A stretch of DNA of 53,028 bases from contig JASHNT010000093.1 of the NCBI GenBank assembly GCA_030041495.1, positions 1-53,028 of the forward strand. Reading direction: 5' to 3'. Under the pieces are notes generated by a model. It ran no database searches. It was not told where the DNA came from and saw nothing but the letters and a program-made list of their open reading frames with translations. This DNA comes from Bryobacteraceae bacterium (GTDB lineage: Bacteria > Acidobacteriota > Terriglobia > Bryobacterales > Bryobacteraceae). The position numbers were made by a program, and so were the translations under genes. Below, in pieces: positions 31,401 to 42,359 of the stretch. Within the stretch, counting starts at the first letter, position 1. Each line of letters begins with the position of its first letter.

Positions 31401-31832
31401 TCAAGCCAGCGCCAGCGCGGCTTCCGCCTCGACCTCGACTGGCTGAAACGCGACGCGAGGCGTGACGGAAATGAGCGGGCTCAAGACCTCTTGCGGAGGA
31501 ATCACCTGCAGGTAGCCGAGCGCGACCGCGTGCCGGCGCCACTCGCTCACGATCTGCCAGATGTGCTGGCGCGTGACGCCGTAGCGCTTGGCGATCCGGT
31601 CGCAGCTCCAGCCCCGCACAAAATACAGCAGCACCATATGGCATTGCTGTTGGCCGGGCGCGTGCTTTATGAACACCGGAACCTGCGACGGGAAAGTGAC
31701 CAGATTCGCGCGGATGGCCTCCTGAAGCTGATCGAGACGAAGCTTGTTCAGATTCAGGCCGAGACTCAGGTGGCCGAGGATGCCACTTGGGACTTGGCCG
31801 CCCCGGGCTTGAGGCCGGCTCCCTGTCAGCAT
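31401..31832 (-). CDS. Small helix-turn-helix protein linked to KdpDE
   Basis: The 143-residue protein has a helix-turn-helix core at about 66-100: MVLLYFVRGWSCDRIAKRYG and VTRQHIWQIVSEWRRHA, similar to sigma-70 region 4 or transposase-type HTH units. A basic N-terminal part and an Ala/Glu-rich tail flank it. It sits 91 bases after kdpE on the same strand. Its own promoter element (31840-31875) matches those of the kinase and porin genes, with the presumed -10 box only seven bases before ATG 31832. That conserved promoter supports a real gene, although an overlapping plus-strand frame also exists. Function unknown; a DNA-binding partner of the KdpDE-like system is inferred. Confidence 0.65.
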   Translation of the reverse strand: MLTGSRPQARGGQVPSGILGHLSLGLNLNKLRLDQLQEAIRANLVTFPSQVPVFIKHAPGQQQCHMVLLYFVRGWSCDRIAKRYGVTRQHIWQIVSEWRRHAVALGYLQVIPPQEVLSPLISVTPRVAFQPVEVEAEAALALA

Positions 31833-31839
31833 GAACAGC

Positions 31840-31875
31840 AGTCTGCGCTGAAAGTCGTGAAAAAGGCATAAAAAT
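31840..31875 (-). promoter_or_regulatory. KdpE-type box and promoter of the small HTH gene
   Basis: On the minus strand the element reads TTTTTATGCCTTTTTCACG, followed 17 bases after TGCCTT by the hexamer CAGACT (31845-31840). It aligns without gaps to the elements before the two porins and the kinase. CAGACT ends seven bases before the start codon, so the transcript would be leaderless. Confidence 0.65.
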
Positions 31876-31923
31876 AGCGCTCTTTCGCGAACTAAGCCAT
31901 TGAAAAAAAGAAGAATTTAGTGT

Positions 31924-32685
31924 TTACAGCATCTTGGCTTCGACTTCCTGCGCCGTCGGAGCTTCCGCCTCGGAGGGATTGCGGAAACGGTAGCCAACCC
32001 AAGGCTCGGTCAGGATGTAATCGGGCTTGGCCGGATCGTCCTCGATCTTCTTGCGCAGCATGCGGACGTAGGAACGCAGGTATTCGAGTTCGTTGCCGTA
32101 TTCCGGCCCCCATACCGAGCGCAGCAGCTTGACGTGCGTCAAGGGCGCGCCCTGGTTCTGCATCATGTAGGCCAGCAACTCGAATTCTTTGGGCGACAGA
32201 TGCACCTGTTTGCCGGAGCGCCACAAGATGCGGCGGTGCAGGTCCATGGCCAGTGAGCCGGCCTGCAGCACCTGCGGTTCCTGGAGGTCGATGGCCCGGG
32301 TGCGGCGCAAAACCGCTCGCAGCCGCGCGATCAGCTCGCGCAGCCGGAACGGCTTGGTGACGTAATCGTCCGCGCCGGCTTCAAGCGCGTGCACTTTGTC
32401 GTCTTCCTGATCGCGCACGGTCACCATCACGATCCCGGCGCGCGGGGTCAGATCGCGGATGCGGCGGCAGGTTTCGATGCCGCCCAGGCCGGGCATGTTG
32501 ATGTCCAGCAACACCAGGTCGAAGCTGCGGGTTTGCGCCGCCCCCAGCGCTTCCTCGCCGCTGCGGGCTTCCTCCACCGAGAAGCCGCAGGCAGTCAGCG
32601 AAGTGCGCAGGACTTTGCGCAGGGATGGTTCGTCGTCCACCACAAGGACATTGCAGGATGCCACGGCCACTTGGGGGATAGTCAT
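31924..32685 (-). CDS. kdpE: KdpE-like OmpR-family response regulator
   Basis: The 253-residue regulator has a receiver domain (D17/D18, phosphorylation site D61 in LLDINMPG, T89, K111 in YVTKPFRL) and a winged-helix output domain with the KdpE-typical stretch LLRSVWGPEYGNELEYLRSY followed by VRMLRKKIEDDP and YILTEPWVGYRF. It overlaps the kinase gene by four bases (ATGA). In E. coli KdpE activates the potassium pump operon; here the candidate targets are the elements at 31840, 34243, 34522 and 37443. A tail of about 15 Ala/Glu-rich residues is extra. Confidence 0.85.
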   Translation of the reverse strand: MTIPQVAVASCNVLVVDDEPSLRKVLRTSLTACGFSVEEARSGEEALGAAQTRSFDLVLLDINMPGLGGIETCRRIRDLTPRAGIVMVTVRDQEDDKVHALEAGADDYVTKPFRLRELIARLRAVLRRTRAIDLQEPQVLQAGSLAMDLHRRILWRSGKQVHLSPKEFELLAYMMQNQGAPLTHVKLLRSVWGPEYGNELEYLRSYVRMLRKKIEDDPAKPDYILTEPWVGYRFRNPSEAEAPTAQEVEAKML

Positions 32686-34142
32686 TCGGGTTCACCTTTC
32701 GTGCGGGGAAGGGCGAGATAGAATGTCACGCCTTCATTCAACCGCTCAATATCCAGATCCAACATGCCGCCGTGAGCTAGCGCGATTTTCCGGGCCACAT
32801 GCAGGCCCAGACCGGATCCGGTGGTGAAGCGGCGGGCTTCAGCGCCCCGGTAAAAGCGCTCAAAGATGCGGTTTTGCTCAGCCGGAGCGATCGAACTCCC
32901 GTTGTTGGAGACGCGGATGTAAACCATGTCCGGCTGGGATTCCATTTCAATTTTGATTTCCGAGTCGGGAACCGAATATTTGCAGGCGTTGTCCAGTAAT
33001 TGGCTCAGCGCCAGGCGCAACAGCTCCGCGTCGGCCAGCGTCTCTACCCGCTCGCCGCGCAGCACGAAAGAAATTTGCCGGTCGGACGGCAGGCGCTTGT
33101 ACTGTTCCACGATGTCGCTGACCACGGCCGCAACATCGGTGGACTCGCGCTGCGGGTGTACGTCTTCGCGATCCAGGCGCGCGACCTTCAGCAAGCGCGA
33201 GGTCAGACTGCCCAGGCGCGCGGCCTCAGCTTCCACCGTCTCCGCCATTTCCATTTGCTCGGCCCCCAGCGCCCCGGTTTCGCGAATGCCTCCGGCGGCC
33301 GCCAGGATCGTTGCCAGCGGCGTCTTGAACTCATGCGCTAGAGCGTCGAGAATCGCGGACCGGTACGCTTCGGTCTGAATCGCCGCGGCCGCTTCACTGG
33401 CCTTCTGGAAGGCGCGCGTGCGCTCCTGCGACGCGGCGGCCAGCGAGATCAACGGACCTGCCGTCAACTGCGGATCTTCCAGGCCTTCAAATCCCATCGC
33501 GCCGGTGGTCTTTCCGCCGACGCGCAGGCAGCGCACGGTTACGTGATTGGCGGGATCGTCGCCGTCTTGTTGCTGAATAAAAGCGGAGCGGGTGCGTTCC
33601 GGCAGGTGCGCGCGCGACCGGCCCAGCATGTAGGATTCGCTGTTGTCGCCGTCGTAAATACACACGGCGCGTGTCCCGAACACGCCAGCAAACGGCTGCA
33701 GGAGCTTGTCTCCCACCGCCGCTTCCGGCTCGAGCGCCAGCAATTGTTGTGCTATGTGATACAAACTGTCAATCCGATCTTTTTGCAGCGCGGAAACCCT
33801 CGCCTCTGTTCGAACTCTGGTGACTAATCTGGTGATGACAAGCGAGGTCATCAAAAAGGAACCCAATGCAACTACATTCAGCGGCGCCGCCACGTACAAG
33901 GTGAAAAGCGGCGTAGTGAAGAAATAATCCAGGCATCCGACAGCCAGGACGGACACCAGCGCTGACCAGGCAAAACTACCCCACAGGGATTGCAGTACCA
34001 CCGCTAACATGTACAGCGGGATCGCCGTTGCAAAATCGAGATGCAGTGCGAAACATCCCGCCGTCAACACCGCTATGGCTACGATGCCGAGCAAGGCCAT
34101 CGAATAAGAATGCCGCGGTACACGGCGGAGGGTGGGCTGCAT
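32682..34142 (-). CDS. KdpD-like sensor histidine kinase lacking the KdpD N-terminal domain
   Basis: The 486-residue kinase begins with the four-helix DUF4118 module of KdpD (about 15-108, including LDFATAIPLYMLAVVLQSLW and LDYFFTTPLFTLYVAAP). A GAF-like region follows (about 130-235), then the H-box with H270 (ALAHEFKTPLATIL) and the ATPase domain with N-box QLLDNACKYS and GLGLHVARKI. Full KdpD has a long N-terminal cytoplasmic KdpD/Usp region, which is absent, so the stimulus may differ. It overlaps the regulator gene. An element of the KdpE type at 34243-34278 lies about 100 bases upstream, suggesting autoregulation. Confidence 0.85.
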   Translation of the reverse strand: MQPTLRRVPRHSYSMALLGIVAIAVLTAGCFALHLDFATAIPLYMLAVVLQSLWGSFAWSALVSVLAVGCLDYFFTTPLFTLYVAAPLNVVALGSFLMTSLVITRLVTRVRTEARVSALQKDRIDSLYHIAQQLLALEPEAAVGDKLLQPFAGVFGTRAVCIYDGDNSESYMLGRSRAHLPERTRSAFIQQQDGDDPANHVTVRCLRVGGKTTGAMGFEGLEDPQLTAGPLISLAAASQERTRAFQKASEAAAAIQTEAYRSAILDALAHEFKTPLATILAAAGGIRETGALGAEQMEMAETVEAEAARLGSLTSRLLKVARLDREDVHPQRESTDVAAVVSDIVEQYKRLPSDRQISFVLRGERVETLADAELLRLALSQLLDNACKYSVPDSEIKIEMESQPDMVYIRVSNNGSSIAPAEQNRIFERFYRGAEARRFTTGSGLGLHVARKIALAHGGMLDLDIERLNEGVTFYLALPRTKGEPE

Positions 34143-34521
34143 TCAAACTGCCTGGTGACCTCTATCTTAGCTTGAGTACACCTCCTCCCGCATCGCTGGA
34201 TGCATCGGATTACAAAATGCCTCATTCACGTTTCTGAGCTTGACGATAACGGAAGCAACATAAAAAAGGCATAAAAGAAAAGGCCATCTTTAGGGAATTT
34301 TTATGATGCGAGCTTGAGAAATCTTCATAGCGCAGCCCGCCGGGCGGGCATTACGGGACTTAGAACGCAAGCCCGGTGCACCGCCGGAGGCCTCTCAATC
34401 GGACGAAGGCCCCTGCCCCTGCTTCATCGGGTCCGGCCGTGTGTTGTGGGAAGGCACGCCCCTTGGACCTATCTAAGGGAAATATAAGGCTTATACAAAA
34501 ATTCTTTCATAGACGAGGGAT
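34143..34521. other. Divergent intergenic region with GC-rich foldable block
   Basis: No gene is seen. It holds the kinase promoter (34243-34278, minus strand) and a GC-rich block at about 34320-34460 with several inverted repeats: GCCCGCC/GGCGGGC around 34342, and a CGGAC...GTCCG pair enclosing GAAG...CTTC near 34400-34440. The block lies upstream of the porin promoter, so it is not part of that leader. I could not match it to any riboswitch or RNA family I know. Confidence 0.35.
34243..34278 (-). promoter_or_regulatory. KdpE-type box and promoter of the kinase-regulator operon
   Basis: The minus strand carries TTTTATGCCTTTTTTATG, then a hexamer TATCGT (34248-34243) 17 bases after TGCCTT. 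It aligns without gaps to the porin elements. A start of transcription near 34236 would leave about 94 bases of leader before the kinase ATG. Confidence 0.65.
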
Positions 34522-34557
34522 GTTTTTATGACTTTTTTATGTCGTCGCCCGCATACT
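34522..34557 (+). promoter_or_regulatory. KdpE-type box and promoter of porin 1
   Basis: The element reads TTTTTATGACTTTTTTATG, then GTCGTCGCCCGCATACT. TGACTT (34529-34534) and CATACT (34552-34557) are 17 bases apart, as -35 and -10 boxes would be. It matches the element before porin 2 at 28 of 36 positions without gaps. The order T-run, ATG/ATA, CTTTTTT, A, then GCCCGC resembles the E. coli kdpFABC operator TTTTTATACTTTTTTTACA followed by CCCCGCCCG, as I recall it. Confidence 0.7.
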
Positions 34558-34881
34558 GAGTCAACAAGCTAAGCTTAGTTGGGGGCTGTCGTGAAAGCGT
34601 ACTCCTCTCAACCCTCGTTCCTTTGAGCCCGGACCCAAGTCCGGTCAGGCTCCTGAAGATTCTAATAGAAAACCTGGCGTTTTAACGCGGAGCGGCAGAT
34701 CAAAACTCATCCACGCGGATGTGCGATCGCTCCCCTGCTTTTTTACACCCGCGTGGATTAATTAGGATCTTTCCTCAGGTTCGTTTATATCTTTTTTAGC
34801 CGTGCTTCAGGACATCCTTAACGAGCCTGCCTTAGCCTTGGACGAACAACATAACTCTGCTGCAAGGACTGGAGAACCCTT
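34558..34881 (+). other. Long leader of porin 1 with inverted repeats
   Basis: If transcription starts near 34564, the porin mRNA has a leader of roughly 318 bases without an open reading frame of note. It contains a compact hairpin at 34625-34652 (GAGCC and CCGGAC paired with GTCCGG and GGCTC) and a larger inverted repeat, ATCCACGCGG (34709-34718) with CCGCGTGGAT (34749-34758). It may be a regulatory leader or merely spacer. Confidence 0.4.
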
Positions 34882-36510
34882 ATGAGTGGGAATTACCTTA
34901 CAATCAAGCATTTCATGAGCAGCGGCGGGCGGGCGTGGAGACGCACTGCCTTGAGTGCGCTTTTGCTGGCTGGTCTGACAGGGCCGATGGCCGCGCAGAC
35001 AGCGGCTCGGGCCCAGACGGAGGAGGCCCCGCAAGCGGCGACTGACGAGGAGGCTACGGCACCGGCGGCGGCTGAGGCCACTCCCGCGCCTCCCGGCGAC
35101 TCGCAAGACGCGGCGCAAACGCCCGCTGCACAGGCGGCGGCTCCTGCCGCTCCCGCGCCGGTGGACCTCCAGACGCCGTTCGCTTTCGGAGACTTCACCT
35201 GGATGAACGCGGTGCCCCGCAACCATGACTCGGTCTTCGACGGCAAGTACTTCACCGGCGAATTCCGGTGGGATTCCAACTACATCTACGACTACAACCA
35301 TCCCATCGACCACAGCTTGAGCGGCACCACGGAGGGCACGCGAACCGGCGAGTTCGTCTTGCAGCAATTGAACGTCGGCGGCGACTTTCATTGGGAAGGC
35401 GTGCAGGCGCGCTTTCTCAGCCAACTCGGCGCGGTCGCCACGGCGACTCCCCGCAACGATGCGAGCAACACGGAGGGTCAGTGGGACACTGCCGACGCCT
35501 ACCGGTACATGACGGAAGGCTATGGCGGATATCACTTGAACGTGCAGCATGGCATCAACATACAGGCTGGCATTTTCATGTCCTATATCGGACTGTTCAG
35601 CTACTACAGTTTCGATAACTGGGCGTATCAGCCGTCGTATGTGTCGTCCAACACGCCGTGGTTCTTTAATGGATTCCGCGTGCAATGGTTCCCCACCAAC
35701 AAGCTGAAGTTCGAGCCGTGGCTGATCAATGGCTGGCAATCCTACGCTAAGTACAACGGGAGGATGGGCGTCGGCGGCCAGATTCTGTGGCGTCCGACCG
35801 CCAGTCTGGACTTTGTGTTCAACAGTTACGGCATGGGCCAGGACACTCCGTATACGCACCGCACGCGCATGCACGAAGACGACAGCATGGAGTGGAAATA
35901 CTTTGAGAACCCCAGCAAGCTCATGCACCGCATGGCATTCTCTCTAACTTTCGACTTCGGTTGCGAGACCGGCGGCGGCGGTCCTCCGATTGTCGCCGGC
36001 ACGGAGCAGGCGGGCAAAGTGAGCTGCGTGGGCGGGCCCGGCGCTCCGGCGCAGAACTTCATTGGCGGAATGGCCTACCATCGCTGGTGGTTCGACAAGG
36101 ACAAGTTCGGTGCGACCATCGGCGGAGGCTGGGTGAAAAATCCCGGCCGTTACCTGGTCCTGCTGCCTCCCATCGATGGCGCCACCGCCAGCACCGGAAC
36201 GCCCTACTTCACTGAGAACCCGGGCAATCCATTCCAGGCCTATGATTTCCAGACGACCTTCGACTACATGCCCACACAGTTCGTCACCTGGCGCGTGGAG
36301 TTCACCCAGCGCGGCGCCAATGTGCCCTACTTCTCTGGTCCCGGCGGCTTGACGCCTCCCGGAGGCAATAACGCGAATCCTGCCCTGTATACCTGCATGG
36401 ACGGAACCCAGAACGCCAGCGGCAATTGCGGGAACGACGGCGGCCTGTGGAGTCCGGACCTGCGCAAGCAGGAACGGCGCTGGATTTTTGCTCTGCTGGT
36501 CCGGCTGTAG
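34882..36510 (+). CDS. Outer-membrane beta-barrel porin, BBP_2 type (porin 1)
   Basis: The 542-residue protein has an N-terminal signal region (TALSALLLAGLTGPMAAQ), an Ala/Pro/Glu-rich linker (about 45-95), and a barrel domain of alternating strands: FRWDSNYIYDYNHPIDHSLS, GEFVLQQLNVGGDFHWEGVQ, NIQAGIFMSYIGLFSYYSFD, and GFRVQWFPTNKLKFEPWLIN. These are BBP_2 (OmpL-like) patterns. It ends in aromatic/hydrophobic FALLVRL. It should form a channel in the outer membrane. Its promoter carries a KdpE-type element, and a small secreted-protein gene follows after a hairpin. Substrate unknown. Confidence 0.85.
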   Translation: MSGNYLTIKHFMSSGGRAWRRTALSALLLAGLTGPMAAQTAARAQTEEAPQAATDEEATAPAAAEATPAPPGDSQDAAQTPAAQAAAPAAPAPVDLQTPFAFGDFTWMNAVPRNHDSVFDGKYFTGEFRWDSNYIYDYNHPIDHSLSGTTEGTRTGEFVLQQLNVGGDFHWEGVQARFLSQLGAVATATPRNDASNTEGQWDTADAYRYMTEGYGGYHLNVQHGINIQAGIFMSYIGLFSYYSFDNWAYQPSYVSSNTPWFFNGFRVQWFPTNKLKFEPWLINGWQSYAKYNGRMGVGGQILWRPTASLDFVFNSYGMGQDTPYTHRTRMHEDDSMEWKYFENPSKLMHRMAFSLTFDFGCETGGGGPPIVAGTEQAGKVSCVGGPGAPAQNFIGGMAYHRWWFDKDKFGATIGGGWVKNPGRYLVLLPPIDGATASTGTPYFTENPGNPFQAYDFQTTFDYMPTQFVTWRVEFTQRGANVPYFSGPGGLTPPGGNNANPALYTCMDGTQNASGNCGNDGGLWSPDLRKQERRWIFALLVRL

Positions 36511-36539
36511 TGTGCCGGCCAATTCGGTAGCGAGCACGC

Positions 36540-36569
36540 GTGGCGGAGCGGGTCAAAACACTCCGCCAC
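36540..36569. terminator. Hairpin between porin 1 and the next gene
   Basis: GTGGCGGAG (36540-36548) pairs perfectly with CTCCGCCAC (36561-36569) around a 12-base loop, followed by the T-containing stretch AAATTTGATTTT. It lies 30 bases after the porin stop and could end or weaken transcription before the following gene. The T-run is not continuous, so termination may be partial. Confidence 0.45.
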
Positions 36570-36601
36570 AAATTTGATTTTAAGGGAGGCATGAAGAATC
36601 T

Positions 36602-37306
36602 ATGCGGAGAAGCTGGAAGCTGTCCATACTTCCGTTTTCGGCGTTGTTCCTGCTGGCAGCCGGAGCGTCCTGGCAGGGTAAGACCATCGATCAGTGGACC
36701 GAGCAGGATGCCAAGCAGGTGCTGGCCGGATCGCCCTGGGTCAAGCACGTCATGCCCGGCTTGTTGCCGAAATTGAGCGAGGATCAACTTCGCTCCGGCG
36801 GCAAGATGGGCGGCGGCGAAGGCCTGGGGGCAGAGGCGTTGAACCCCAATCTGTTCACCGGCGCGGGTCAGGCTCCCGGCAAACACGGGCCGCGGCCGAG
36901 CTTGGTCAACACCCTGGAAGTCCGTTGGGAAAGTGCCGAGGCAGTGCGCGCGGCCGAAGTGAAGTCGCACGCCCAGGATGCTCCCGATCTGCAGAGCGGA
37001 GTTTATGCCATCGCCGTTTATGACGTTCCCGGATTGGACGTTAATGACCGGAGCTTGGCCTACGACCTGAAGCAGCAGGCCATCCTAAAACGCGACGGCA
37101 AGAAGGAAAGCCGCGCAATTCATGTGGATGTGCTGCCGCAGGGAGGCGGCTTGTGCACAGTGATCTACAGTTTCCCTCGCTCCCAAAAGAGTGAGATCAC
37201 CGCTCAAGACAAGCGCGTGACTTTCTCGGCGCTCATCGGACGTCTGTCCTTAGCTCAGTATTTCTATACCGCCGAAATGGAGGTCGGCGGCAAGTTGGAG
37301 TTGTGA
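36602..37306 (+). CDS. Secreted protein of unknown function after porin 1
   Basis: The 234-residue product has a signal peptide (SILPFSALFLLAAGAS). Next comes KTIDQWTEQDAKQVLAGSPW, a phrase I associate with secreted Acidobacterial proteins of unknown role, then a Gly-rich stretch (about 68-80) and a beta-rich C-terminus (GVYAIAVYDVPGLDVNDRSL, AQYFYTAEMEVGGKLEL). The ribosome-binding site AAGGGAGG (about 36582-36589) is 12 bases from ATG 36602; a nearer ATG at 36591 is out of frame and too close. A strong hairpin lies downstream (37356-37396). Confidence 0.65.
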   Translation: MRRSWKLSILPFSALFLLAAGASWQGKTIDQWTEQDAKQVLAGSPWVKHVMPGLLPKLSEDQLRSGGKMGGGEGLGAEALNPNLFTGAGQAPGKHGPRPSLVNTLEVRWESAEAVRAAEVKSHAQDAPDLQSGVYAIAVYDVPGLDVNDRSLAYDLKQQAILKRDGKKESRAIHVDVLPQGGGLCTVIYSFPRSQKSEITAQDKRVTFSALIGRLSLAQYFYTAEMEVGGKLEL

Positions 37307-37355
37307 AAATTCACAAATCGTAAGATTTCTTCGATGCGTCTTGGACGGATCGGAA

Positions 37356-37396
37356 GCATATGGAGCGGTGTCTTGCAAAAGCCCCGCTCCATATGC
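37356..37396. terminator. 13-bp perfect hairpin after the secreted-protein gene
   Basis: GCATATGGAGCGG (37356-37368) is perfectly complementary to CCGCTCCATATGC (37384-37396) with a 15-base loop. It stands between the gene ending at 37306 and the promoter of porin 2 at 37443, so a transcription terminator separating the two units is likely. The following bases, ATTTCC, are only weakly U-rich. Confidence 0.55.
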
Positions 37397-37442
37397 ATTT
37401 CCTATACATGCGATCTAAAAAACTATTGAAAGAAACGGCCTT

Positions 37443-37478
37443 GTTTTCATGACTTTTTCAGCACCCTGCCCGCATACT
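37443..37478 (+). promoter_or_regulatory. KdpE-type box and promoter of porin 2
   Basis: The element reads TTTTCATGACTTTTTCAGC followed by ACCCTGCCCGCATACT. TGACTT (37450-37455) and CATACT (37473-37478) are 17 bases apart. It aligns without gaps to 34522-34557 and to the minus-strand elements at 31840 and 34243. A transcript from here would have a leader of roughly 105 bases. Confidence 0.7.
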
Positions 37479-37590: not shown

Positions 37591-39192
37591 ATGAGAATCT
37601 TATTAGTATTTTTCGCGTGCGTGAATGTGAGCCTTTGCGCCGCGGCCCAACCCGTACCGGAGACCGATGCCGCGCTTCCCCCTAGCGGAGGCAGCGATCC
37701 GGCCACTTCTGCGCTTACCTCTCCAGCCGCTCCCGGGTCTGTGCTCGCGGCGGTAGGCAACGCTCCGGCGGCGGCCGACGCATCGCCGGCGGCTGCGGGC
37801 GGAGACCCGGTCGCGGCCACTGCTCCCGCCGTTACATCCGGCGCTCCCCTGACCGGCTCTTTTATCGGCCGTCTGTTCAAGGCTTATGCAAGTGATTGGA
37901 CCGCGCCTGCTGCGGATTCCGGACCCGTTCCGCACCGCGGTTACGAAGCGCCTGAATCCGATCCGCCGTTTCCCTTCACCGTGTGGCCCTACGGAGGCAG
38001 TCCGGTGATCGGGCAACCGTTCACTCAGTCCGCCCCGCTGATGCAAGCGATCTGGAGCGGCTCGAACGGCGATTGGTGGAAGCAGAGCGGCATACAGATT
38101 TACGGCTGGTTGAACGGCGGATTCAACGTGAGCACCTCGACCGGCGGAGGGTATTCGAATTACCCGGCCGCGTATGCCGAACGCGGCAACTCCATCACCA
38201 TGGATCAGGAAGTGCTGTACATTGACAAGCAGCCAGACACGGTGCAGACCGATCACATCGATTGGGGCTTCCGCATCGCGCCCATCTACGGCTTGGATTA
38301 CCGTTACACCACCTCCAAGGGAATCTTCAGCAACCAGCTCCTCGGTGAGAACAAGGAGAACGGTTTCGATATCCCGATGGCGTATTTCGACCTTTACGTT
38401 CCGCAGGTGGCGCAGGGCATGAACATCCGCATCGGCCGCTATATTTCGCTGCCGGATATCGAGGCGCAGTTGGCGCCGAACAACTACACCTACACTCACT
38501 CGATCACCTACACGTTCGACTGTTACACCCAGACCGGCATCAACGCGACCACCATGCTCAACAAGAACTGGATGTTCCAGGTCGGCCTTTCGGCCGGTTG
38601 CGACGCCGCGCCATGGACCTCCGACGCCAAGCCCACCCTCAACGGTTGCCTGGGCTACACCTTTCATGGGGGCGGCGACAACATCTACGCCTGCGACAAC
38701 ACCTTCAACAACGGCAAGTACGCCTACAACAATCTGACCGCTTACTATCTGACCTGGTATCACAAGTTCAATTCCACTTGGCACACCGACACGGAGAGTT
38801 GGTATCAATATGAGCGCGACACGCCCAACGTCAACAACCCTGCGGCGAAATCGCTGCTGGAAGTGGGTGCCAACGGAGCGGTCTGCAATCAACTTTATGA
38901 GGTGACCTGCTTCGCGCCCGAGTGGGCGGTGCTGAATTACGTCGAAAAGAAGATCAACGCGCGCAACTACCTCAGCATCCGCAACGAGGTCTTCGATGAC
39001 CTGCGCGGCCAGCGCACCGGATTCCGTACCCTCTATACAGAGCACACCGTCGGCTGGGGTCACTGGGTCGGGACCACCGTTCTTCTCCGGCCTGAGCTGC
39101 GCTTTGAGCGCTCCTATGACGTGCCGGCTTACAACAACGGAACCAAGCAGAATCAGTTCATGTTCGCTTGTGACGCGATTTTCTTTTTCTAA
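37591..39192 (+). CDS. Outer-membrane beta-barrel porin, BBP_2 type (porin 2)
   Basis: The 533-residue protein has a signal peptide (RILLVFFACVNVSLCAAAQ), a long Ala/Pro/Ser-rich linker (about 20-95), then a BBP_2 barrel: SGIQIYGWLNGGFNVSTSTG, DHIDWGFRIAPIYGLDYRYT, FDIPMAYFDLYVPQVAQGMN, IRIGRYISLPDIEAQL and a C-terminus rich in aromatics (FMFACDAIFFF, ending in Phe as barrel proteins do). It is only distantly like porin 1 in sequence but shares its layout and promoter element. Likely an outer-membrane channel regulated together with porin 1. Confidence 0.88.
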   Translation: MRILLVFFACVNVSLCAAAQPVPETDAALPPSGGSDPATSALTSPAAPGSVLAAVGNAPAAADASPAAAGGDPVAATAPAVTSGAPLTGSFIGRLFKAYASDWTAPAADSGPVPHRGYEAPESDPPFPFTVWPYGGSPVIGQPFTQSAPLMQAIWSGSNGDWWKQSGIQIYGWLNGGFNVSTSTGGGYSNYPAAYAERGNSITMDQEVLYIDKQPDTVQTDHIDWGFRIAPIYGLDYRYTTSKGIFSNQLLGENKENGFDIPMAYFDLYVPQVAQGMNIRIGRYISLPDIEAQLAPNNYTYTHSITYTFDCYTQTGINATTMLNKNWMFQVGLSAGCDAAPWTSDAKPTLNGCLGYTFHGGGDNIYACDNTFNNGKYAYNNLTAYYLTWYHKFNSTWHTDTESWYQYERDTPNVNNPAAKSLLEVGANGAVCNQLYEVTCFAPEWAVLNYVEKKINARNYLSIRNEVFDDLRGQRTGFRTLYTEHTVGWGHWVGTTVLLRPELRFERSYDVPAYNNGTKQNQFMFACDAIFFF

Positions 39193-39699: not shown

Positions 39700-39867
39700 C
39701 CGCCGGGCAGGCTTCTTCTTTTCCAACCTCGTTTTTGGTTTGGACGTTTTCTGACGGCCATCCTGCCGTGCTACGCGTGCACCCGAAGCTCTGTTTCCAG
39801 GCGTTCTCTTTGAGATTGATTGCAGATTGATTGCGGCGCGGAAAGCGCCGTTTAAGGGTTCTTGCAA

Positions 39868-41172
39868 ATGCACAGGCATTATTCCAAGCGTTGGATGGCA
39901 GTGGGTGCGGGCGCGGGCTTGTACCTGGGCGCCTTGTATCTGGCCACGGCTGCATCCGGCCAGAGCACTCCCACGGCCTTCACCTGGCAGCAGATCAAAG
40001 AGCGGTTCGAAGGCGTGAATCCGACTCTGATCGCAGCCCGGGCCAATATCGATGAGTCGCGTGCGGCCGAGATCACGGCTTTTCTGCGCCCCAATCCGGA
40101 CTTCAGTGTTTCGGCCGACGGCTTCCAGTTGGTGCCCAACCTGGGTGTCTGGCAGCCCACCAGCGGCGTTGTCTTGACGCCTAGCATCAGCTATCTGCAT
40201 GAGCGCCAGCACAAGCGGGAACTGCGGCTCGAAACCGCCAAAGAGTCGACTGATATCGCGCAGTCCAGCTACTCAGATGTCGAGCGAGGCCTGCTGTTCA
40301 ATTTGCGCAACGCCTTCGTGGGAGTTCTCCAGGCCAAGGCCGTGTTCCAAAACGCGACCGCTAATCTGACCTATTGGGACCAGGAACTGGTGGTGAATCA
40401 GAACCGCTACAACGCCGGCGATCTGGATCAGTTGGATTTGAATAAGCTGATCTTGCAGCGTGTCCAGTTCGAGACCGACCTGCAAAACGCGATCTTGAAT
40501 CTGAAGACCAGCAAAATCGGGATCCAGCAACTGGTGCTCGACCGCACGCCCATCGACCGCTTCGACGTCAGCGGCCCCTACGAATACAGCGAGAAGTTGG
40601 CGCCGCTCGAAACCTTCCGCCAGGCCGCGCTCGAATCGCGGCCGGATTTGAAGGTTGCCGTTCAGAACGTGGAGCTGGCGCGAATGAATCATCAATTGGC
40701 GGTCGCCAACGGCTCGACCGATCCCACCTGGAGCGTGTGGTATTCGCACAACGCGTCCTTCGCCAACACCTTCGCCAACAATACCGCCGGTTTCAGCGTG
40801 AGCATCCCGCTGCGCATCTTCGACCGCAATCAGGGCGAGAAGGCGCGCACCCAGGTCGACATCGGACGCAATGAGAGGCTGCGCGACGCGGCCGAGGCGC
40901 AGGTGTTCAACGACGTCGATTCGGCCTACGTGACGCTGGAGGAGGCGCTCAACCTGCTGGGCCGCTACAAGGAGAAATATGTGCCTCTCGCCGGAGACAT
41001 TCGCGATAAAACTCGCGACGCGTTCCAGCACGGCGGGGCATCGCTGTTGGATTATCTGGATGCAGAAAAATCGTATCGCGACACGAATTTGAATTACATC
41101 AATTTCATCGGTTCGTACTTGACCGCGGCCGCCCAAATGAATCAGGCCGTGGGCCGGGAGGTTCTTCCATGA
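39868..41172 (+). CDS. TolC-family outer-membrane efflux protein (CzcC-like)
   Basis: The start is ATG 39868 (434 residues); a TTG six bases upstream is less likely. After a signal sequence (VGAGAGLYLGALYLATAASG) the protein has two outer-membrane-efflux repeats with long amphipathic helices: FTWQQIKERFEGVNPTLIAA, GLLFNLRNAFVGVLQAKAVF, NRYNAGDLDQLDLNKLILQR, and DAFQHGGASLLDYLDAEKSY. It would be the trimeric outer-membrane channel of the tripartite pump. It overlaps the adaptor gene by four bases (ATGA). Confidence 0.92.
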   Translation: MHRHYSKRWMAVGAGAGLYLGALYLATAASGQSTPTAFTWQQIKERFEGVNPTLIAARANIDESRAAEITAFLRPNPDFSVSADGFQLVPNLGVWQPTSGVVLTPSISYLHERQHKRELRLETAKESTDIAQSSYSDVERGLLFNLRNAFVGVLQAKAVFQNATANLTYWDQELVVNQNRYNAGDLDQLDLNKLILQRVQFETDLQNAILNLKTSKIGIQQLVLDRTPIDRFDVSGPYEYSEKLAPLETFRQAALESRPDLKVAVQNVELARMNHQLAVANGSTDPTWSVWYSHNASFANTFANNTAGFSVSIPLRIFDRNQGEKARTQVDIGRNERLRDAAEAQVFNDVDSAYVTLEEALNLLGRYKEKYVPLAGDIRDKTRDAFQHGGASLLDYLDAEKSYRDTNLNYINFIGSYLTAAAQMNQAVGREVLP

Positions 41173-42359
41173 ATCGCAAAGTTTTGTTTCTTGAACTTGG
41201 TCTGGCGTCGATCCTGACGCTCAGCTTATTGCTGGGCGGATGCGGGAAAACCAGTACCGCCAAAGCGGACTCGGGCGACACCGCGCCCCCGCCCGCGCAA
41301 GTCGAGCCGGACATGGACTCGAGCAACTTCAAGGTGGACCACCCCGACCAGTTCCCCCTGGTGAAGGCGGCTGAGCACATGGCCGCGCCGGAGTTGAACG
41401 TTACCGGCGTTGTCGGTCCCGACGTGTCGAAGAACGTTCCCGTGATTTCGACCGCCACCGGAAGAGTCATCGACATCAAGGTGAAGGTGGGCGACACCGT
41501 GCAAAAAGGCGAGGTGCTGTTCACCGTGCGCAGCGCCGATATCGCCGGGGCGTTCTCCGATTACCGCCACGCCGTCGCCGCCGAGCAGTTGGCCAAGAAG
41601 CAGTTGGACCGTTCCAAGATTCTACTCGACGACGGCGCGATCCCAGTCAGCCAACTCGAAATTGCGCAGACCGCCGAAGACACCGCGCTGGTGGATTTGG
41701 ACACCACTGCCAAGCACCTCCAGGTGCTGGGCGTGCCGGATCCCAATAATCCCACCGACATCATTTCGATGCTCGCTCCCGTTTCGGGAGTCATCACCGA
41801 CCAGCAGATCACCAATTCTTCCGCCGTGCAGGCTTTTGCGCCGTCCAACACATCGCCTACCAACCCGTATTCGACTGGGTATCCGTTCACCATTTCCGAC
41901 ATGTCCGACGTCTGGGTGGTGTGCGATGTGTTCGAAAATAACCTGTCGCAGGTGGGCATGAATGAGTACGCGGATGTGCGCCTGAACGCTTATCCCAATC
42001 GGGTGTTCCGCGCGCGCATCTCCAATATCGGCCAGATTCTCGATCCCAACCTGCACACCGCCAAGGTGCGCCTTGAGGTGCCGAACCAGGCGGGACTGAT
42101 GCGCATCGGCATGTTCGCGACGGCTACGTTCCACGGCGAGACCATGGAGACGCGCGCGGTGGTGCCGAGCTCGGCCATTTTGCATCTGCACGACCGGGAC
42201 TGGGTGTATACGCCGGCGCCCAACAATCATTTCAAGCGCGTGGAAGTCACGGCCGGAGTGATGTTGCCCAACAATATGCAGGAAGTGGTCACCGGCATCA
42301 AACCCGGGGACCAAGTCGTCTCCAACGCCCTGGTGCTGCAAAGCACCGTCGAACAGTAA
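41169..42359 (+). CDS. RND efflux periplasmic adaptor lipoprotein (CzcB-like)
   Basis: The 396-residue protein has a lipoprotein signal with C25 in LLLGGC. It shows the membrane-fusion layout: RVIDIKVKVGDTVQKGEVLF (lipoyl half), a helical hairpin (about 125-190), the second lipoyl half ISMLAPVSGVITDQQITNSS, beta-barrel SDVWVVCDVFENNLSQVGMN, and a C-terminal domain ending VVTGIKPGDQVVSNALVLQS. It links the inner-membrane pump with the TolC-like channel. There is no His-rich metal-binding extension. Confidence 0.92.
   Translation: MNRKVLFLELGLASILTLSLLLGGCGKTSTAKADSGDTAPPPAQVEPDMDSSNFKVDHPDQFPLVKAAEHMAAPELNVTGVVGPDVSKNVPVISTATGRVIDIKVKVGDTVQKGEVLFTVRSADIAGAFSDYRHAVAAEQLAKKQLDRSKILLDDGAIPVSQLEIAQTAEDTALVDLDTTAKHLQVLGVPDPNNPTDIISMLAPVSGVITDQQITNSSAVQAFAPSNTSPTNPYSTGYPFTISDMSDVWVVCDVFENNLSQVGMNEYADVRLNAYPNRVFRARISNIGQILDPNLHTAKVRLEVPNQAGLMRIGMFATATFHGETMETRAVVPSSAILHLHDRDWVYTPAPNNHFKRVEVTAGVMLPNNMQEVVTGIKPGDQVVSNALVLQSTVEQ

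Follow-up and report, generated by a model that had tools for sequence, protein, structure and literature searches.

A KdpDE-like two-component pair with a predicted multi-promoter porin regulon in a Bryobacteraceae genome

The window analysed here is a stretch of 53,028 nucleotides (contig JASHNT010000093.1, GenBank assembly GCA_030041495.1) from a Bryobacteraceae bacterium, probably a soil organism, whose genome (G000) is a 144-contig assembly of 6.12 Mb. It encodes a sensor kinase and a KdpE-like response regulator together with a small HTH protein and two porins of the BBP2 family (porA and porB), and it carries four copies of a promoter element that we call motif A. As judged from sequence comparisons, it is likely that this pair is a KdpDE-like paralogue with a motif A regulon of its own, that the separate, kdp-linked KdpE of the same genome acts on a second element, motif B, and that porA is under the control of both. 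The proposal is built on the sites that were observed, their spacing and conservation, the genes associated with them and the similarity of the proteins.

Motif A is an 11-bp direct repeat, TTTTYATGNCT-TTTTYAYG, in which two 8-bp half-sites recur with a period of 11 bp (TTTTYATG-NCT-TTTTYAYG), a -10 hexamer lies 10 nt beyond the second half-site and the operator overlaps the -35 position of the promoter. A preliminary description of the window had reported four 36-base elements, at 31840-31875 and 34243-34278 on the minus strand and at 34522-34557 and 37443-37478 on the plus strand. We found all of them there, with the -10-like hexamers that had been assigned to them (TATCGT before the kinase, CATACT before porA and porB and CAGACT before the HTH gene), and a count by eye gave the same 28 of 36 agreeing positions for the two porin copies. 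The pattern TTTTNATGNCTTTTT is exact in three of the four window elements, which make up its three exact occurrences in the window, the kinase site (34263-34277) reading CTTTTATGCCTTTTT with one mismatch; 100 dinucleotide shuffles contained no exact occurrence. Sites scoring 20 bits or more, 52 after redundancy was removed, were selected without regard to the -10, and yet the A and T of the hexamer stand at positions 31 and 35 in 42 of them, as against five or fewer at every other offset from 21 to 49 and 11 at offset 20, which lies inside the edge of the repeat. All four elements of the window resemble genuine promoters. At the window HTH gene the ATG lies at 31832, 7 nt past the -10 CAGACT; ATGs 5-7 nt past the -10, which resemble those of leaderless transcripts, are also found at the VWA genes of the own genome, the relative G008 and locus L118 and at the HTH gene of L116, while several other motif A sites before HTH or VWA genes have no ATG at this distance.

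Across the whole genome, TTTTNATGNCTTTTTYA occurs at up to one mismatch in six places, namely the four window sites, C133:91620 and C100:112710. At up to two mismatches there are 19 places versus nine for the backwards-read control, the 13 two-mismatch places being divided between the C133 cluster (three) and elsewhere (ten). On contig C133, four motif A sites surround a paralogous cluster with a third BBP2 porin, a homologue (37% identical) of the window gene hyp234 and another kinase of the DUF4118 type, which shares 64% identity with that of the window. The site on C100 stands directly before a VWA gene whose product is 57.6% identical to a VWA protein of the relative G004, also preceded by a site, and the arrangement of VWA gene with motif A is repeated in G008, there beside glnA. 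In all, six of nine motif A sites of the own genome (the four of the window, that of the VWA gene and one porin site on C133) have a -10 at the expected spacing. We further used a profile, R1, built from 52 sites of which none came from the own genome. It gave eight own-genome matches at E<=10 (150 of 592 first-look candidates scored), with the four window sites and the C100 VWA site ranking first (E 8.4e-6 to 0.0032), followed by C133, C10 (E 0.16) and C133 again. Both the sequences and this retrieval support the idea of one promoter element shared by these genes, the kinase-regulator operon included. The porins, the kinase-regulator pair and the HTH gene, named at the outset as the targets, do carry sites; the regulon appears to reach further, however, to the VWA gene and the second porin/kinase cluster on other contigs.

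A separate observation concerns the C133 kinase (L020:11717-13210), which is preceded by a motif A site of its own and in which Gln replaces the phospho-acceptor His (AQEFKTPL versus AHEFKTPL). No response regulator adjoins it among the open reading frames (ORFs) looked at, and it is possibly a phosphatase-only or decoy kinase.

The association of motif A with the kinase extends to relatives. Among 41 genomes (the own one and 40 others), the kinase is found at E<1e-140 in five (the own genome, G004, G005, G008 and G020). These five hold 32 of the 55 matches to the 19-base pattern at up to two mismatches (control, 3), the remaining 36 holding 23 (control, 14). R1 likewise gives four to seven matches at E<=0.05 in each kinase genome, and one or two in four others. 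In a set of 151 genomes of the class (the own genome and 150 drawn evenly; 44 first-look candidates scored per genome), all four genomes with the kinase at E<=1e-90 have at least two R1 matches, whereas four of the other 147 have one and none has two. We also searched relatives' loci (75 kept of 148 confirmed) with a 19-bp matrix built from the four window sites alone, taking 30 column-permuted matrices as controls. The kinase is at least 48% identical in 20 of these loci, all titled metagenome assemblies, four of which come from G004, G005, G008 and G020 again. These 20 loci (350,311 bp) yielded 83 matches of at least 16 bits (permuted mean 3.9, maximum 29), and the other 55 (821,553 bp) yielded 35 (permuted mean 11.0, maximum 22); at least one such match is present in 15 of the 20. 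The nearest downstream ORF of the 83 matches, a tally in which tandem arrays are counted more than once, is a kinase in 17 cases, a BBP2 porin in 16 (porC 11, porA 4, porB 1), a VWA gene in 11, an HTH gene in eight, another gene in nine and unrecognised in 22.

Some sites in relatives show further features. At some promoters there are tandem arrays of at least three 11-bp half-sites (L118:12437-12496, L128:12209-12268). Motif A-type sites are also seen at PII-like signalling genes, so named by eye (L086:18687 on G005:C84; L088:17184-17195 on G013:C41), the one in G005 being adjoined by ammonium-transporter-like ORFs, a hint that motif A may be tied to nitrogen in some relatives.

The regulator resembles KdpE in several respects. 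It is 43% identical to the Escherichia coli protein, has the OmpR/PhoB architecture of a receiver with a Trans_reg_C domain and finds KdpE (4KNY) as its best PDB match. Its R204, R211 and T226 correspond to the DNA-contact residues R193, R200 and T215, which E. coli KdpE needs (PMC3264566). The operator, too, is of the KdpE type, as had been proposed: no 19-mer in the 8-kb locus scores higher under the window matrix than the E. coli kdp operator TTTTTATACTTTTTTTACA (20.2 bits, the next 17.1). A direct repeat too, this operator matches the window sites at 12-15 of 19 bases; its half-sites TTTATA and TTTACA, with 5 bp between them in a footprint from -72 to -50 (PMC3264566), have the same 11-bp period and differ in the last base from TTTATG/TTYAYG. 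With the KdpE equivalog model NF007820, still the best model, the window regulator scores 192.2 bits against a cut-off of 325 and so fails as a KdpE equivalog; since the kdp-linked KdpE of the own genome fails too (206.1 bits; E. coli KdpE, 487.6), this cut-off does not discriminate here. The PhoB model gives 177.7 bits against a cut-off of 296.2. The kinase (DUF4118, HisKA and HATPase being its only Pfam domains) aligns only with residues 408-881, the C-terminal half, of E. coli KdpD, and lacks the N-terminal cytoplasmic (KdpD/Usp) half present there. Nor does the window pair lie beside kdp genes or show the linkage to kdpFABC. In Staphylococcus aureus, KdpE has targets beyond kdp, namely virulence genes; that KdpDE is not known to be an additional paralogue or to act on porins. 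The main target of E. coli KdpE is kdpFABC, described as its sole known one in PMC7657598, which adds adeP, uxaA and uxaC as direct targets; the window pair is associated with porin and envelope genes.

The absence of a kdp pump noted earlier applies to the window genes viewed (27-42 kb), but not to the genome, which has kdpA at two loci, on C118 and C17. On C118 a separate kdp-linked kinase and regulator are kept beside kdpFABC with a diverged operator; hence the window pair is better described as a diverged paralogue present in addition to the kdp system than as the rewired KdpDE circuit of the preliminary description. Motif A is absent at up to three mismatches from both own-genome kdp stretches (L026, L027) and was rejected as the element of kdpFABC there; motif B is found instead, the array on C118 reading TTTTTAGCTCA GCTTAAGGACA TCCTTAGCGCC followed by TAACGT. 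A further motif B array, missed in the preliminary description, lies between the distal motif A site and porA, with a 10-nt gap from its last 8-bp half-site to the -10. At up to three mismatches, motif B has eight places in the 41 genomes versus three for the backwards control: porA, the C118 kdp and, with three mismatches, the C17 kdp in the own genome; porA, the kdp on C238 and a place on C694 in G008; and one each, with three mismatches, in G017 and G025.

The kdp promoters of G020, G013, G004 and G016 (kdp genes named by eye) have tandem 11-bp repeats related to motif A. The kdp promoters contain three to four such units, spaced from the -10 as in motif A, and in ten of ten kdp-type arrays read by eye a TANNNT lies 10 nt past the final 8-bp unit. 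The kdp-linked split KdpD/KdpE of the own genome and genus has in common with the window pair a DUF4118 kinase, a KdpE-like regulator, promoters with tandem 11-bp repeats and the 10-nt gap. It differs in sitting at kdpFABC. In the own genome and in G008, separate genes resembling the N-terminal part of KdpD adjoin it, and the operator half-site of these two genomes is of the TTAG type (motif B), unlike motif A. The position of R193 is occupied by His in the kdp-linked KdpE of G000 and G008 and by Arg in the other 13 of the 15 regulators listed. Motif B is also found a short way before porA, both in the window and in one relative; porA is therefore likely to have two promoters, each serving one KdpE paralogue, and joint control by two KdpE paralogues whose operator codes have become separate is the simplest reading.

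Two of these motif B loci have further features. The array on C694 of G008 (L211:5546) has a TANNNT at the usual gap, and the sequence retrieved around it shows no recognised gene downstream. The C17 locus (L027:8039-10368) is a second kdp-like locus with KdpA and KdpC (by eye) and the three-mismatch motif B upstream; no KdpB match was seen among the adjacent ORFs.

In the mechanism that we propose, the phosphorylated window regulator would most likely bind the TTTTYATGNCT-TTTTYAYG repeat as a dimer, directly before the -10 at a fixed spacing. The bound regulator would activate its own operon, the small HTH gene, the two BBP2 porins, the VWA gene and the second porin cluster. The kdp-linked KdpE would most likely use the diverged repeat, motif B, at kdpFABC, and porA would probably integrate both systems via its second, motif B promoter. 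We infer the pairing of protein and site, activation over repression, binding as a dimer and the signal; our assumption about the direction of control comes from the geometry of the promoters. More tentatively, and with the balance slightly against it, a duplicated KdpDE with its own operator code may have taken over outer-membrane permeability. The pump would have stayed with the kdp-linked sister, whose code has diverged (His for Arg at the R193 position, TTAG for TTYATG half-sites). In stacking both operators, porA would then be one porin that reads two paralogous potassium-type systems, with crosstalk limited by the diverged half-sites.

Several other explanations have to be weighed against this proposal. 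T-runs are common upstream of genes generally, and motif A might be such T-rich sequence arising by chance. This was ruled out by the shuffles and by the genome search with a profile that excludes own-genome sites and yet retrieves those of the window; the comparison with permuted matrices and the fixed spacing of the -10 contradict it as well, and we give it practically no weight. It is highly improbable, too, that motif A represents an alternative-sigma promoter class, in which the T-rich part would be a -35/UP-like sequence and no KdpE-type protein would be involved. The strict spacing from the T-rich part to the -10 would fit such a class, as would TGACTT, which resembles a -35 element; however, the -10 is of the type YANNNT, that of the housekeeping sigma factor, the kdp promoters have their three to four tandem units at an equal gap to the -10, and the window matrix retrieves the E. 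coli KdpE operator.

A binder other than the window regulator, either another OmpR/PhoB-family member or the cluster's own small HTH protein, is improbable. The HTH gene does sit in the cluster and is co-conserved with it, and there are probably further OmpR-family regulators in the genome; yet a direct repeat of 11 bp whose half-site is like that of E. coli KdpE suits a KdpE-type winged helix, and motif A co-occurs with the kinase orthologue across genomes. Somewhat less improbable, but still unlikely, is that the regulator binds as proposed and mainly represses by covering the -35 region, which its operator overlaps. Such overlap is the usual place of PhoB-type activators. In the pho box as well, the operator consists of tandem 11-bp half-sites directly before the -10 and occupies the position of the -35; its half-site sequence differs from that of motif A. 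Moreover, E. coli KdpE activates kdp (PMC7657598).

Certain observations weigh against the proposed regulon itself. Five of the 20 close-kinase loci (L119, L122, L123, L127 and L130) have no match of at least 16 bits, 22 of the 83 matches are without a recognised downstream gene under a mechanical nearest-ORF assignment, and three of the four C133 sites lack a -10 at the expected spacing. Each R1 genome search scored a portion of its first-look candidates, and the R1 genome surveys are partly circular for genomes that supplied training loci, because R1 was trained near such kinases. The regulator, like the own kdp-linked KdpE, is below the KdpE cut-off, and E. coli KdpE binds from -72 to -50 whereas the window operators adjoin the -10 (PMC3264566). 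A regulator tree, in which 10 of the 15 inner branches are open and those of E. coli are long, says no more than that regulators of the kdp-linked and window types seem to fall into different groups; and the Arg/His covariation is perhaps a single event, as it is found in only two close genomes.

If correct, the proposal would give a KdpE-like paralogue a conserved multi-promoter porin/envelope regulon, as against one operon and a few added genes in E. coli (PMC7657598). It would be a natural case in which to study the divergence of response regulators, and of their operators, after duplication, and it opens the question of whether outer-membrane entry is regulated jointly with potassium uptake in these mostly uncultured bacteria. 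No KdpE-controlled porin regulon in Acidobacteriota was found among the titles and abstract openings listed in literature searches, which is not proof of absence.

Table 1. Genes and predicted promoters of the porin and two-component cluster in the window
Feature	Position	Strand	Remarks
Small HTH protein, 143 aa	31401..31832	-	HTH_23, homeodomain-like
Motif A promoter, small HTH gene	31840..31874	-	19-bp operator 31856-31874, -10 CAGACT 31840-31845
Response regulator, KdpE-like	31924..32685	-	receiver and winged helix
Sensor kinase, DUF4118-HisKA-HATPase, 486 aa	32682..34142	-	Pfam
Motif A promoter, kinase-regulator operon	34243..34277	-	operator 34259-34277, -10 TATCGT 34243-34248
Motif A distal promoter of porA	34523..34557	+	operator 34523-34541, -10 CATACT 34552-34557
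Motif B, kdp-type proximal promoter of porA	34782..34838	+	11-bp half-sites at 34782, 34793, 34804 and 34815 (register by eye), -10 TAGCCT 34833-34838
porA, BBP2 porin	34882..36510	+	Pfam
hyp234, 234 aa, secreted-looking	36602..37306	+	no Pfam match
Motif A promoter of porB	37444..37478	+	operator 37444-37462, -10 CATACT 37473-37478
porB, BBP2 porin	37591..39192	+	Pfam
TolC-like gene	39862-41172	+	downstream of porB
RND adaptor gene	41169-42359	+	after the TolC-like gene

Other genes of the cluster (Table 1) have counterparts in relatives. Homologues of the HTH gene are likewise located downstream of motif A in several of them. The TolC-like and RND adaptor genes would be on the porB transcript; in G008, homologues of the two ('RND' being named by eye) follow a motif A site. 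The structure model of hyp234 is beta-rich (mean predicted local distance difference test score 77) and has no match in the PDB at E<=0.001, so we give the protein no function. Its family is a recurrent porin neighbour in relatives; the C133 homologue lies at L020:10642-11304, and another is found in G008 beside a kdpD N-terminal-like gene (L210:13440-14183). Lastly, motif A-type sites just 3' of KdpE-like genes (L088:8766, L085:2527) share the stretch GGAACCGTCATGATC at and after the -10 region, which is perhaps a small gene or RNA.

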